64,000 nt of DNA from Pectinatus haikarae. Its GTDB lineage: Bacteria > Bacillota > Negativicutes > Selenomonadales > Selenomonadaceae. How positions within the stretch are numbered: the first letter of the stretch is position 1; each line of letters begins with the position of its first letter. This document shows, one piece after another, positions 22,619-43,571 of this stretch. The notes below the pieces were generated by a model. It was not told the DNA's origin. It worked only from the letters and a program-made list of their open reading frames with translations, and did not search any database. The stretch is from NCBI RefSeq assembly GCF_015732185.1, contig NZ_WIQM01000008.1, positions 186,001 to 250,000 of the forward strand, in the 5' to 3' direction. Both the position numbers and the translations under genes were made by a program.

Positions 22619-23578
22619 CTATTTATTTATATTTAGCTGAATTTTCATTAGATCTCTAGCTGAATTTCCATAATAATATGCCGCTTTTTCATAATCACCT
22701 ATTTCTTCATAATTCCTCCCAGCAAGCAGCATAAGTTCTGGGGTATCAGGTTCCAAAAACTCTAAATCGTTCCATACAGATTGATATACATAGCCTTTAT
22801 ATAATTTATCCATTACAGGAGTATTCCCCTTTAACCAAGGTTTTGCTTCATTGACAAAATGCAATATTATATCATTTTTCTCTCTCAAATCAATCGTCGG
22901 ATCATTAGGAGCAGTCATTCTATTAAATTTATGTGGAAGATCATAAATATTGTTTTGAAGAATTACATTTATGGCATCCTGATCGGGAAGCAAAAAAAAT
23001 TCATAAAATTTAACATAACAATCTTCGATCAACTTTGTTATGTTTCCTAGTTTCCATAAATGCATATTTATAAGTAATACTCCAGAATTAAAATATTTAT
23101 CTGATTTTAACCCCAGCCGATCTATTTGTTCAATACCATGTTTCTTCTTATACTGACTGGCAGCTATTATATATTTATCCGGTATTTCTATGTCCCATAA
23201 TTGTTTTATATCCCCTACACACAACATATCTGCATCTAGGTATATCAATTTTTTTACATTATCGGGTAAAATTTGTGGGATAAATATTCTTAAAAGTATA
23301 GCCTTGTTAAAACGTTTATCCGTATAAATTGATAAATCAGGCAATGATTTTATTTTTTCTTCCAAATCATATGTTTTTATGTAAGCATTTTTATATAAAT
23401 TATTGAATAAATCTATTTTTTTTCTGTTTAAATCTGATAATTTTTCACTAATAGCAACATGAAATACTATTTTATTTCCCAAAGAATTCATTATTATGGA
23501 AGTCATTAAAATACCTGCATATGATAAATATTTATTATCCACACCCAATGCTATATTTATAATGTTTTTTTCTGTCAT
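22619..23578 (-). CDS. Glycosyltransferase family 8 protein with C-terminal TPR-like repeat
   Basis: A 319-residue retaining sugar transferase of the LPS galactosyl/glucosyltransferase type. INIALGVDNKYLSYAGILMTSI is the nucleotide-sugar start, LIYLDADMLCVGDIKQLWD carries the metal-binding DxD, and YFNSGVLLINMHLW and FLLPDQDAINVI are the usual GT8 motifs. Near the end, LMLLAGRNYEEIGDYEKAAY looks like one tetratricopeptide repeat, which is unusual. Its ATG overlaps the remB stop by four bases (ATGA), placing it in the dnaA-recF transcript. GT8 enzymes decorate lipopolysaccharide or surface glycans; the acceptor is unknown. Confidence 0.88.
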   Translation of the reverse strand: MTEKNIINIALGVDNKYLSYAGILMTSIIMNSLGNKIVFHVAISEKLSDLNRKKIDLFNNLYKNAYIKTYDLEEKIKSLPDLSIYTDKRFNKAILLRIFIPQILPDNVKKLIYLDADMLCVGDIKQLWDIEIPDKYIIAASQYKKKHGIEQIDRLGLKSDKYFNSGVLLINMHLWKLGNITKLIEDCYVKFYEFFLLPDQDAINVILQNNIYDLPHKFNRMTAPNDPTIDLREKNDIILHFVNEAKPWLKGNTPVMDKLYKGYVYQSVWNDLEFLEPDTPELMLLAGRNYEEIGDYEKAAYYYGNSARDLMKIQLNINK

Positions 23579-27017: not shown

Positions 27018-27090
27018 CCTTATTTATTATTAATATATATTTATATAAAGTTAGTCGTCGTAGTCGTAGGGGCTGTGAAAATGTTGATAA
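27018..27090 (-). other. oriC: Origin unwinding element: DnaA boxes, GC block, DnaA-trio repeats, AT-rich tract
   Basis: Reading in the dnaA direction: TTATCAACA (27090-27082), TTTTCACA (27081-27074), a CCCC block, then the trinucleotide series TAC GAC TAC GAC GAC TAA (27068-27051), then a purely AT tract to 27018. This is the order of the basal unwinding system described in Bacillus subtilis, where DnaA spreads from the boxes onto single-stranded trios. It is seen directly; function is inferred. Confidence 0.8.
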
Positions 27091-27135
27091 CTTGCTTTTT
27101 ATCTTTTGTAGTAAGGTTTTTTTGTGTTAATAAGC

Positions 27136-27246
27136 TGTTGATAAGTATAGCTTCTGAATTCACAAATTCACATTTTAAAGAGCTATAGTTTTTTATCCAC
27201 ATAAAGTTCACCTTTTATACATATTAAATACACATTTTGTGGATAA
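27136..27246. other. oriC: DnaA boxes between dnaA and dnaN
   Basis: Three more boxes accompany the unwinding element: TGTTGATAA at 27136-27144, the consensus TTATCCACA at 27193-27201, and TGTGGATAA at 27238-27246 next to the dnaA stop. Orientation is mixed. Confidence 0.75.
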
Positions 27247-28805: not shown

Positions 28806-28975
28806 TTATCCACAAAGTTATGCACAATTGTTGATAACTTCAAATTTTTTTAAAGTCTTGTCTCTATTAGGCAATGAAAAAGCTTTAAGAAAAAAATACT
28901 GGTAATCAAGTATCTACAAAGCTGTTGATAAAATATGTGGATAAAATAAAAATATGTGGATAAATATGTGGATAT
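28806..28975. other. oriC: DnaA-box cluster upstream of dnaA, second half of a bipartite origin
   Basis: In the 430-base gap between dnaA and rpmH: TTATCCACA at 28806, TTATGCACA at 28818, TGTTGATAA at 28829 and 28923, TGTGGATAA at 28936 and 28955, and TGTGGATAT at 28967. Boxes in the left half point mostly one way and those in the right half the other. The rest of the gap is AT-rich and without genes. Coding direction switches here, from minus to plus, as expected at an origin. Confidence 0.85.
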
Positions 28976-35646: not shown

Positions 35647-35700
35647 GAAAAAGTATTATGGTAATGATCATCATAACTATATATGAAGGGTGGGGGATAT

Positions 35701-36390
35701 ATGCGCAGATATATTTTACTGGTCCTGTGTATAAGTTTTCTATTGGACTCAAGGGCAGCTTTGGCAGCTCTTCCATCTGCCGCGATAGATTCTGAGCCGG
35801 TAGTAAATGCGGAAACGGTGAAAAATCAGGATGTGGGACAGACTGCTGCTGAGGATAATAAGGGATCGGCAGCAAAAAAGGATAAAGACGAAAATATATT
35901 TAAAAAAATGAATAAAGCGGATGAGGCCGATAAAAAAAGATTTGTGCTGATAGCAAAAGACAGCAGATTTTTTTATTACCTTGACCGTAAATCAGCCCGC
36001 TGGATCTTTGAGCCGAACAGCAGCAGAAAAATAATGGATGTATGGATACAATTGGTTGATGCCAACAAGGCAAGTGCACCGGCTGATAAATATTCAAATA
36101 TTTCTGCTGATCAGTCATATTTGCTGGATCATTATTATATACGCCCTCAATTGCGGCAGATGCAATTCCTGTGTGAACTTGAAGTCGTAGGGCAGCCATC
36201 TAATAATGTGACGCAGAATGTGTATTCTGTTAAGAATTGGGAAGATATTATTCCCGGAAGCATTGAAGAAACCATATTCAACGCAGTCGTGAATACAAAG
36301 GAAAGTCTTGTGAAAATTGATACACAGAGCAACAGTATGGACATACAGGCCAGAGACTTTTTAGATAGAGTGCTTAATATAGGTTTGTGA
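35701..36390 (+). CDS. Secreted protein of unknown function, surface-adhesin-E-like
   Basis: A 229-residue protein with a cleavable signal peptide (MRRYILLVLCISFLLDSRAALA) and then a lysine- and aspartate-rich low-complexity stretch to about residue 75. The folded part begins FVLIAKDSRFFYYLDRKS and continues RKIMDVWIQLVD, a pattern like the surface-adhesin protein E domain (a short beta sheet that reads out a residue-by-residue change of state); this similarity is only suggestive. The start is ATG 35701, after GGGGG; an ATG 18 bases upstream has no ribosome site. It sits where noc or parA normally follows rsmG in Firmicutes. Neighbouring DnaA boxes lie directly behind it. Confidence 0.65.
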   Translation: MRRYILLVLCISFLLDSRAALAALPSAAIDSEPVVNAETVKNQDVGQTAAEDNKGSAAKKDKDENIFKKMNKADEADKKRFVLIAKDSRFFYYLDRKSARWIFEPNSSRKIMDVWIQLVDANKASAPADKYSNISADQSYLLDHYYIRPQLRQMQFLCELEVVGQPSNNVTQNVYSVKNWEDIIPGSIEETIFNAVVNTKESLVKIDTQSNSMDIQARDFLDRVLNIGL

Positions 36391-36459
36391 TGATTTGGGC
36401 AGTATTTAGCTGGATTGTGTCTGTTCGAAGACTTTAGGAAACTGAAATTTATTATTCGG

Positions 36460-36719
36460 TTATCCACAATATCCACAGGGAAATGTTCAAAATTTGTGGA
36501 TAACCGTTGAATAAATGAAAAAAACTGTTGATAATCTGTAGGTAACTAATAAAGTTATCCACAGGAGGATTTATGAGCCGGCAAAATTATAATTATTTTT
36601 TGGAAACACGAATTTCCTTATATATCAGGCTTCCATGTGATTTATATATAGGCATTTATTTAATATGAAAAATGAAAAAGAAGAATTATCCACAAATTAT
36701 TTTTAAAAATTGTGGATAA
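36460..36719. other. Second DnaA-box cluster (seven boxes)
   Basis: In a 374-base gap between the secreted protein gene and the converging AICAR transformylase gene: TTATCCACA at 36460, ATATCCACA at 36469, TGTGGATAA at 36495, TGTTGATAA at 36526, TTATCCACA at 36555, TTATCCACA at 36686 and TGTGGATAA at 36711. Five are exact consensus. The last two form the arms of a terminator hairpin. The density equals that of the main origin. Confidence 0.8.
36573..36668 (+). CDS. Possible 31-residue peptide with strong ribosome site
   Basis: ATG at 36573 is preceded by ACAGGAGGATTT, an almost ideal ribosome site, and opens 31 codons to TGA at 36666-36668. The predicted peptide begins MSRQNYNYFLETRISL and is rich in tyrosine, leucine and isoleucine, with a C-terminal hydrophobic half ending CDLYIGIYLI that could touch a membrane. 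The first DnaA box in front overlaps the ribosome site. No family is recognised. Chance cannot be excluded at this length. Confidence 0.35.
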   Translation: MSRQNYNYFLETRISLYIRLPCDLYIGIYLI

Positions 36720-36730
36720 TTCTTCTTTTT
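36680..36730. terminator. Bidirectional terminator whose arms are DnaA boxes
   Basis: Perfect 16-bp repeat GAAGAATTATCCACAA / TTGTGGATAATTCTTC with a 14-base loop, then a run of eight T residues on the plus side and CTTTTT on the minus side. It can end both converging transcripts. Confidence 0.75.
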
Positions 36731-36764
36731 TTTGCATCTGCTATTATGGCTGCATAGTAATAAA

Positions 36765-37937
36765 TTAGTGATGAAAGAGACGAATACCGGTCATAGCCAT
36801 AGTTATTGAGTATTTATCACATGTTTCAATGACATTGTCATCACGAATGGAGCCGCCGCTTTGTGCTATATATTTTACACCGCTTTTATGGGCACGTTCT
36901 ATATTGTCACCAAATGGGAAAAAGGCATCAGAAGCGAGGGCAGTACCAGTTATGGCAGAAAGCCATTCATGTTTTTCTTCTCTGCTAAGAACTGGAGGCT
37001 TTTCTGTGAAAACATTTTTCCAGTTGTTATCTGTAAATAAATCCATATATTCATCCGAAATATATACGTCTATGGCATTATCTCTGTCAGGGCGGCGAAT
37101 ATTTTCTTTAAATGGCAGAGAAAGAACTTTGGGATGCTGGCGTAAATGCCAGAAATCAGCTTTATTCCCGGCAAGACGAGTACAATGAACACGTGACTGT
37201 TGTCCGGCGCCTATACCTATGGCTTGTCCGTCCTTGGCATAACAGACGGAATTTGACTGGGTATATTTCAATGTTATTAAAGCAACAATAAGGTCTCTTT
37301 TTGCATCGGGAGGTAAATCTCTGCAGACCGTAGGAATACTTGAAAAAAGATCGTCAGTAATTTTTAAATCATTTCGTTTCTGTTCAAAAGTGATACCAAA
37401 AACTTCTTTTATTTCAGATGCCGGTGCATGATAACTTTTGTCCATTTGAATTATAAGATAATTACCTTTTCTTTTTTTCTTCAATATGGAAAGAGCTTCC
37501 GCTGAATAAGAAGGCGCTATTATACCGTCAGAAACTTCACGGGTCAGGAAAGATGCCGTAGCGGCATCGCATTCATCGGATAAAGCGGCAAAATCTCCGT
37601 AGGAGGACATACGGTCGGCGCCGCGTGCGCGAATATAGGCTTCGGCAAGAGGTGTAAGTTCAATATCTTCTACAAAATAAATTTTTTTCAGCAAAGCTGA
37701 AAGAGGAAGTCCGACAGCGGCACCGGCAGGACTTACATGTTTAAAAGAAGCAGCTGAGGGAAGATTTGTGGCTTCGTGCAGCTCTTGTACGAGCTGCCAG
37801 CTGTTAAAAGCATCAAGCAGATTGATATAACCAGGGCGGCCGTTTAATACAGTAAAAGGGAGATTGCCTTCGTTTATGAAAACTTTTGCGGGTTTTTGGT
37901 TCGGATTGCAGCCATATTTTAGTTCTATTGAGTTCAT
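36765..37937 (-). CDS. AICAR transformylase, stand-alone (no IMP cyclohydrolase domain)
   Basis: Formylates AICAR with 10-formyltetrahydrofolate in purine synthesis. This 390-residue protein corresponds to the C-terminal part of PurH: LKYGCNPNQKPAKVF at the start, FKHVSPAGAAVGL with the catalytic lysine-histidine pair, SYGDFAALSDECD, KYTQSNSVCYAKDGQAIGIGAGQQSRVHC, and ALASDAFFPFGDNIE with PGGSIRDD-like QSGGSIRDDNVIE near the end. The MGS-fold cyclohydrolase domain is absent, so that step needs another enzyme (for example PurO or a separate PurH N-domain). This stand-alone form is known from other Firmicutes. It converges on the secreted protein gene. Confidence 0.9.
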   Translation of the reverse strand: MNSIELKYGCNPNQKPAKVFINEGNLPFTVLNGRPGYINLLDAFNSWQLVQELHEATNLPSAASFKHVSPAGAAVGLPLSALLKKIYFVEDIELTPLAEAYIRARGADRMSSYGDFAALSDECDAATASFLTREVSDGIIAPSYSAEALSILKKKRKGNYLIIQMDKSYHAPASEIKEVFGITFEQKRNDLKITDDLFSSIPTVCRDLPPDAKRDLIVALITLKYTQSNSVCYAKDGQAIGIGAGQQSRVHCTRLAGNKADFWHLRQHPKVLSLPFKENIRRPDRDNAIDVYISDEYMDLFTDNNWKNVFTEKPPVLSREEKHEWLSAITGTALASDAFFPFGDNIERAHKSGVKYIAQSGGSIRDDNVIETCDKYSITMAMTGIRLFHH

Positions 37938-41668: not shown

Positions 41669-41684
41669 TGTTGCACGTGAAACA
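41669..41684. promoter_or_regulatory. parS: parS site, near-consensus
   Basis: TGTTGCACGTGAAACA differs from the Bacillus parS consensus TGTTTCACGTGAAACA at one position. It is in the gap between metH and the activation-domain gene, 1.1 kb from parA. ParB is expected to bind and spread from it. Confidence 0.8.
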
Positions 41685-42812: not shown

Positions 42813-43571
42813 ATGACAAAGATAATTGCTATAGCAAATCAAAAAGGCGGCGTAGGAAAAACTACCACTGCAATTAACTTAAGTGCAGCTTTTGTTAAGG
42901 CAGATAAAAAGGTAATGCTGATAGATGCTGATCCGCAGGGAAATGCTACAAGTGGCTGCGGTATTGAAAAAGGACAGATAGAGAAGTCACTGTATGATTT
43001 ATTGCTCAGAGAAGAAAAAATAAAAGAAATTCTGCGAAAAACGAAGAGCGGAATAGATATTTTACCTGCAACTATAGATTTGGCTGGTGCAGAAGTGGAA
43101 CTTGTGGCGATGTTTTCACGTGAAACAAAGTTAAAAAAAGCATTGGATAAAGTAAAAGCAGAGTATGATTATGTCGTAATCGATTGTCCGCCCTCCTTGG
43201 GATTGCTGACTATAAATGCGCTGACTGCTGCTGATTCAGTAATTTTGCCATTGCAGTGTGAGTATTATGCGTTGGAAGGGATGACACAAATTTTGAATAC
43301 TATAAATTTGGTAAAAGAAAATCTAAATGAAAAATTGTTTTTGGAAGGAGTTGTACTGACAATGTATGACAGCAGAACGAAGCTATCAGCGCAAGTGGCA
43401 GAGGAAGTGAACAGACATTTTCCTGAAAAATTATATAAAACGATAATTCCCCGCAATGTGCGATTGAGCGAGGCTCCATCATACGGATGCCCGATAAATG
43501 AATATGATCCTTCATCAAGAGGCGCTGCCGCATACGCGGCATTGGCGGACGAGGTGATGTCTCATGCCTAA
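42813..43571 (+). CDS. parA: Chromosome partition ATPase ParA (Soj)
   Basis: A 252-residue Walker-type ATPase that moves ParB-parS complexes. The deviant Walker A is IANQKGGVGKTTTAINL with the signature lysine, followed by LIDADPQGNAT and VIDCPPSLGLLTINAL. I chose ATG 42813, right after AGGGGAGA; a TTG 30 bases earlier would add ten residues. The stop overlaps parB by eight bases. A parS-like sequence lies inside its coding region. Confidence 0.95.
   Translation: MTKIIAIANQKGGVGKTTTAINLSAAFVKADKKVMLIDADPQGNATSGCGIEKGQIEKSLYDLLLREEKIKEILRKTKSGIDILPATIDLAGAEVELVAMFSRETKLKKALDKVKAEYDYVVIDCPPSLGLLTINALTAADSVILPLQCEYYALEGMTQILNTINLVKENLNEKLFLEGVVLTMYDSRTKLSAQVAEEVNRHFPEKLYKTIIPRNVRLSEAPSYGCPINEYDPSSRGAAAYAALADEVMSHA
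43112..43127. promoter_or_regulatory. parS: parS-like site within parA
   Basis: GTTTTCACGTGAAACA contains the palindromic core TTTCACGTGAAA; on the other strand it reads TGTTTCACGTGAAAAC, 14 of 16 matching the parS consensus. Location inside the partition operon is typical. Confidence 0.65.

Follow-up and report, generated by a model that had tools for sequence, protein, structure and literature searches.

A conserved DnaA-box cluster close to oriC in Pectinatus as a candidate site for titration of DnaA after initiation

Control of replication initiation is poorly known outside Escherichia coli and Bacillus subtilis. In B. subtilis six DnaA-box clusters (DBCs) are located outside oriC, and deletion of all six was described to result in early initiation (PMC5295017, PMC13220808). 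As the original work is rendered in these two sources (Okumura et al. 2012), the DBCs hold several near-consensus boxes each and are mostly intergenic. Several of the B. subtilis sites lie at promoters (sda, ywlC, trmE), while a strong DnaA site was found between the converging genes gcp and ydiF (PMC4447404). The oriC of B. subtilis is bipartite around dnaA. In E. coli the datA cluster occupies the gap that follows two transcription units (PMC5742627); a terminator is adjacent (PMC5742627, PMC10950094), and transcription through datA can matter (PMC10950094). The core common to E. coli DARS1 and DARS2 has box I opposed to boxes II and III (PMC5742627); as measured in MG1655, a double box 12 bp apart faces a third box at a distance of 14 bp. 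For Streptomyces coelicolor, a member of another phylum which is likened here by description, a cluster outside oriC was reported to repress untimely initiation (Smulczyk-Krawczyszyn 2006, as cited in PMC5742627). We found no publication dealing with the DnaA boxes of Pectinatus, and the literature naming both DnaA boxes and Negativicutes deals, according to titles and abstracts, with other subjects. The functional kind of site described below is already known; new are the occurrence of such clusters in Negativicutes, their fusion with a terminator, and an apparently recurring module of boxes with spacings of 11, 22 or 33-34 bp.

The window, the whole stretch of 64,000 bp that was analysed (G000:C4:186001-250000), is part of a draft genome of 3.1 Mb. 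Its mnmG is 87 % identical to that of Pectinatus cerevisiiphilus and 82 % identical to those of P. frisingensis and P. brassicae, and the host, a beer-spoilage organism, is assigned to Pectinatus (Selenomonadaceae, Negativicutes). A non-coding gap of exactly 374 bp (36391-36764) separates the stop codons of two converging genes. The upstream gene (35683-36390, + strand) is the last of an mnmE-mnmG-rsmG run and encodes an uncharacterised protein of 235 amino acids, for which no Pfam match and no NCBIfam match over the cut-off was found. This protein has an apparent signal peptide and is conserved beside rsmG. The downstream neighbour (36765-37937, - strand) is an AICAR formyltransferase gene (NF005492, purH-like). 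The entire cluster lies within this gap and consists of five exact and two one-mismatch DnaA boxes within 260 bp, approximately 7.5 kb from the oriC part upstream of dnaA (end at 28975); the positions and counts given in the first-pass annotation were reproduced. The cluster starts with an exact box, TTATCCACA, at 36460-36468 (+), which is directly abutted by the one-mismatch box ATATCCACA at 36469-36477 (+). A further exact box at 36495-36503 (-) is convergent with the first, at a start-to-start distance of 35 bp. The second one-mismatch box, TTATCAACA, is found at 36526-36534 (-) and another exact box at 36555-36563 (+). The last two exact boxes, at 36686-36694 (+) and 36711-36719 (-), form the left and right arm, respectively, of a terminator hairpin.

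Such a grouping is hardly expected by chance. The window harbours 13 exact boxes against 0.8 expected, and pattern searches with the exact box returned 78 in the whole genome, among which the cluster at 36391-36764 is the densest group found. The Poisson probability of four further boxes within 260 bp of one box is ~7e-11, or ~6e-9 when taken over all 78 boxes, and five linked boxes occurred in none of 20,000 random placements. The low chance put forward in the first-pass annotation was thus substantiated, while its statement that ordinary intergenic regions of the window have no boxes needs a small correction: isolated exact boxes occur elsewhere in the window, at 23535, 26389 and 50752. Like the DBCs of B. 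subtilis, the cluster is a dense group of near-consensus boxes outside oriC.

The gap was aligned for five Pectinatus species, including that of the window, and the cluster was found at the same place in the four others. Identity to the window sequence amounts to 94 % in the box columns, 82 % in the rest of the hairpin and 41 % in the remaining cluster columns. None of the five species shows a change in the boxes at 36460 and 36495, while the box at 36555 is retained in four and has been lost by deletion from P. frisingensis. The spacings that measure ~35 and ~25 bp are retained among the five, with a middle spacer of variable length. A near-perfect inverted repeat of four boxes makes up the left part of the cluster in P. 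brassicae and P. frisingensis. Conservation is thus selective for the boxes, which appear to have been kept at this locus by selection. Absence of the boxes from near relatives had been named in the first-pass annotation as the outcome that would speak against its reading; instead they are present in 5/5 Pectinatus species, and many other genera have boxes at this place too.

It may be argued that the boxes are a by-product, either of a terminator or inverted repeat that contains TGTGGATAA or of drift near the origin. Indeed, two of the seven boxes belong to a hairpin stem that would be conserved in any case. However, the remaining five are not part of the hairpin and rank with the best-conserved segments of the gap, and in clusters outside Pectinatus the boxes are not terminator arms. 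Furthermore, when all 1680 rearrangements of the nine box letters were counted in the five Pectinatus gaps, TTATCCACA occurred 22 times, the box shifted by one base 8 times and each of the others three times at most; none of the rearranged 9-mers approaches the count of the box itself. An origin of the boxes as a by-product is barely plausible in view of these findings.

The hairpin formed by the two right-hand boxes (36674-36731) is near-symmetrical and carries an A-tract and a T-tract. It was missed by a terminator scan with a loop limit of 8 and was detected by folding, with an energy of -27.7 kcal/mol and a z-score of -8 on one strand and similar values on the other. The hairpin probably serves as a two-way intrinsic terminator for the converging genes, and the earlier recognition of two boxes as terminator arms is borne out; they have this position in 5/5 Pectinatus species. 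The stem is invariant over the five-species alignment, except for one double change (C-G to A-U) and one unpaired cell. CCACA has become CAACA in both arms of the P. frisingensis hairpin, by which pairing is kept, and the resulting box variant is also used in oriC. As a test of covariation this single double change in five sequences is weak evidence, being reached by 90 of 500 shuffles, so that the main support for the stem comes from its energy and invariance. In other genera of Selenomonadaceae a separate, ordinary terminator-like hairpin is often found 3' of the rsmG-side boxes. Since boxes and terminator are separate there, terminator arms made of boxes appear to be a trait of Pectinatus only.

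The coincidence of arms and boxes in all five species, upheld in P. frisingensis by a change that keeps both the pairing and a box variant, could point to transcription control, with DnaA on the terminator and the boxes setting termination, antisense reading, or the expression of a small RNA or ORF. Against this, the flanking genes converge, so that neither neighbour has its promoter in the gap, and promoter-like matches within the gap are at chance level. In other genera the boxes stand apart from the terminator and the downstream gene is a different one. An ORF of 31 codons (36573-36668, + strand) is preceded by AGGAGG, which is abutted by one DnaA box, in line with the proposed overlap of a box with the ribosome site of a small ORF. 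However, neither start nor frame of this ORF is conserved in the other Pectinatus species and it is probably not a gene. A search with Rfam over 26-38 kb gave nothing at the gathering cut-off. The suggestion of a DnaA-controlled small transcript thus found no backing in ORF conservation, promoter matches or Rfam, and a role of the cluster in transcription control in general is considered improbable.

The oriC in the window is bipartite and complete at dnaA. One DnaA-box cluster is located upstream of dnaA (28806-28975) and the other in the dnaA-dnaN interval (27082-27246), with a DnaA-trio-like unwinding motif, TAGTCGTCGTAGTCGTAG, at 27052-27069 (+). The motif was found in the dnaA-dnaN gap of 5/5 Pectinatus species. 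The cluster at 36.5 kb had also been proposed to be a third part of the origin, in which it could, for instance, serve as an enhancer or provide a second site of unwinding. It is near oriC, its exact boxes are more numerous than those in either oriC part, and an enhancer might act by looping. However, when a trio beside a GC-rich patch and a box was sought in the cluster, no comparable repeat was found in any of the five species, and the GC skew changes sign at 24-28 kb, not at 36 kb. With a trio at oriC in all five species and none in the cluster, the site is neither a third origin part by these features nor evidently an sRNA gene, and participation in oriC function is regarded as very improbable.

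The cluster is one of four that are located outside oriC, all within ~210 kb of it. The three others are exact-box groups on the other side of oriC, found at C4:173775-173889 (~41 kb from oriC), at C4:35948-36185 (~179 kb) and, upstream of an mgtC-like gene, at C4:6103-6272 (~208 kb; site L039, 6081-6272). Orthologous loci were found to carry clusters at mgtC/mntH in four species, at dak-like/mqnA in five, and upstream of rubrerythrin in three; P. frisingensis has no cluster at the mgtC place (locus L203). By these comparisons, the four clusters are conserved across species to a varying degree. In a complete relative (G067) no group of at least three boxes is farther than 165 kb from oriC; the pair on the mgtC side is 193 kb away. 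Convergent pairs of the form TTATCCACA-N4..30-TGTGGATAA are confined to these clusters in the five genomes, except for a single pair in G034 (C31), which is near a contig end, has other boxes close by and is not assignable to a cluster. The reversed control pattern gave no matches in the five genomes. Pectinatus thus has, as B. subtilis has, several clusters near oriC.

Taken together, the 36.5-kb site is best read as an oriC-proximal DnaA-box cluster which acts as a B. subtilis-like sink, titrating DnaA soon after initiation; we assign this reading a probability of about 0.68. The dnaA product has an intact box-recognition domain (Bac_DnaA_C), and binding of DnaA at the cluster, its titration and an effect on timing are predicted as follows. 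The non-coding gap would dock several DnaA molecules and form a sink beside the origin. Because the cluster is only 7.5 kb away from oriC, it would be copied almost at once after initiation, by which the number of high-affinity sites would double. The clusters on the other arm (~40-55, 160-180 and 190-210 kb from oriC) would be copied soon after it, free DnaA would drop, and a second initiation would be delayed. Transcription from either direction is probably halted at the terminator that closes the cluster. Transcripts of the mnmE-mnmG-rsmG run probably extend across the five boxes in front of this terminator, and this, by analogy with datA, could modulate DnaA occupancy. A profile search of the genome did not detect YabA and returned only sub-cut-off matches for Hda, one of them dnaA itself; while such a search is no proof of true absence, the result leaves room for titration as a main control. 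Four conserved origin-near clusters in a genome in which YabA and Hda were not detected offer a natural test case of whether titration alone can time initiation.

The likeness to B. subtilis, which extends to the bipartite oriC around dnaA and to a strong site between convergent genes, is one of function and does not imply homology, since the loci are different. Unlike in B. subtilis, where several sites are at promoters, YabA was not detected in Pectinatus, the terminator is built from boxes, and the role of the cluster is read from sequence whereas that of the DBCs was established by function. A titration site like datA had been suggested in the first-pass annotation. Titration is the best-supported candidate, and function and placement fit, but the box order differs from that of datA and the cluster is not counted as a datA site. 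In addition, datA has fewer exact boxes and works only with IHF, a site for which between the boxes is needed for DDAH; the IHF consensus is too weak to place in Pectinatus.

Instead of a passive sink, the site might be one that switches the nucleotide state of DnaA, by datA-like hydrolysis of ATP or DARS-like release of ADP. The position of datA in a comparable gap would agree with this, as would the topology of the DARS core, a double box opposed to a third box, which was also encountered in Selenomonadaceae. In Pectinatus, the mgtC and dak-like sites have a distance of 22 bp from double box to opposed box, and the rsmG-side site of other genera has one of 33-34 bp (8 loci), compared to 14 bp in DARS of MG1655. 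The DARS combination of 12 and 14 bp was thus not found, and the variation is unlike DARS, where DARS1 and DARS2 have identical spacings. DARS2, like datA, requires IHF and in addition Fis, and neither is assignable at the Pectinatus cluster. Moreover, the Pectinatus rsmG-side copy is only partly of the double-plus-opposed, DARS-like form. The same topology is present as a triad in oriC of many members of the family, with a double box 12 bp apart and the opposed box 11 bp on (27 loci; 28806-28837 in the window), and may therefore be a general docking arrangement for DnaA. On balance, a switch of nucleotide state at the 36.5-kb site is held to be unlikely.

The recurring module, with spacings of 11, 22 or 33-34 bp, is a lead in its own right. 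A divergent control arrangement gave no such spacing peaks, though the module loci are related by descent, so that the spacing counts are not independent. In vivo, E. coli DnaA prefers double boxes with 2-3 bp between them (PMC11317965). The conserved spacings provide a concrete hypothesis for DnaA assembly on duplex DNA away from the origin. It could be speculated that Selenomonadaceae possess distributed origin-near docking sites built on one module, a double box against an opposed box at one, two or three helical turns, which actively change the nucleotide state of DnaA like datA and DARS and replace YabA and Hda; to this wider proposal we attach little credence.

The cluster was also followed beyond the genus. 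In 20 of 30 loci, the 350 bp after the stop codon of the rsmG-adjacent gene outscored the rest of the neighbourhood for boxes; these 20 loci stem from 18 distinct genomes, including five of Pectinatus. One additional genome (L132) has boxes farther along the same gap. The rsmG-side cluster is thus present in ~14 genomes of Selenomonadaceae other than Pectinatus, whichever gene lies downstream (purH-like, pfk, a transporter, a GGDEF-like ORF or a trkA-like ORF, of which the transporter and the two ORFs were judged by eye). In nine loci with the rsmG-adjacent gene no boxes were found 3' of it (Propionispira, Anaerovibrio, genus g16 and others), and since several genera have the neighbour gene without the cluster, the rsmG-side cluster is not essential in the family. 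The mgtC-like gene has a cluster upstream in 18 of 30 Selenomonadaceae loci (L201-L230), including genera that lack the rsmG-side cluster, and DnaA may also control this gene. Where both genes share a contig in the non-Pectinatus genomes with an mgtC cluster, mgtC and mnmG are 11-163 kb apart. No dak-like/mqnA cluster was found outside Pectinatus in 26 other loci.

Some further box groups were observed. Genus g7, for which no rsmG-side gene was found, has three exact boxes at G036:C1:4979-5071, on the opposite side of oriC and a few kb away from it. Five loci of Acidaminococcaceae (L079, L082, L085, L091, L110) have DnaA boxes directly 3' of noc and before parA. These were considered as the same site and rejected, as the boxes are located behind noc and before parA in Succiniclasticum-type loci; in view of this different gene context, homology with the rsmG-side site is not claimed. 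In L082 and L110 a parS-like sequence, TTTCACGTGAAAC, adjoins the noc-parA boxes. The window of Pectinatus itself harbours parS-like sites at 41669-41684 and 43112-43127, with one and two mismatches, respectively, near parA/parB at ~42.8-44.5 kb.
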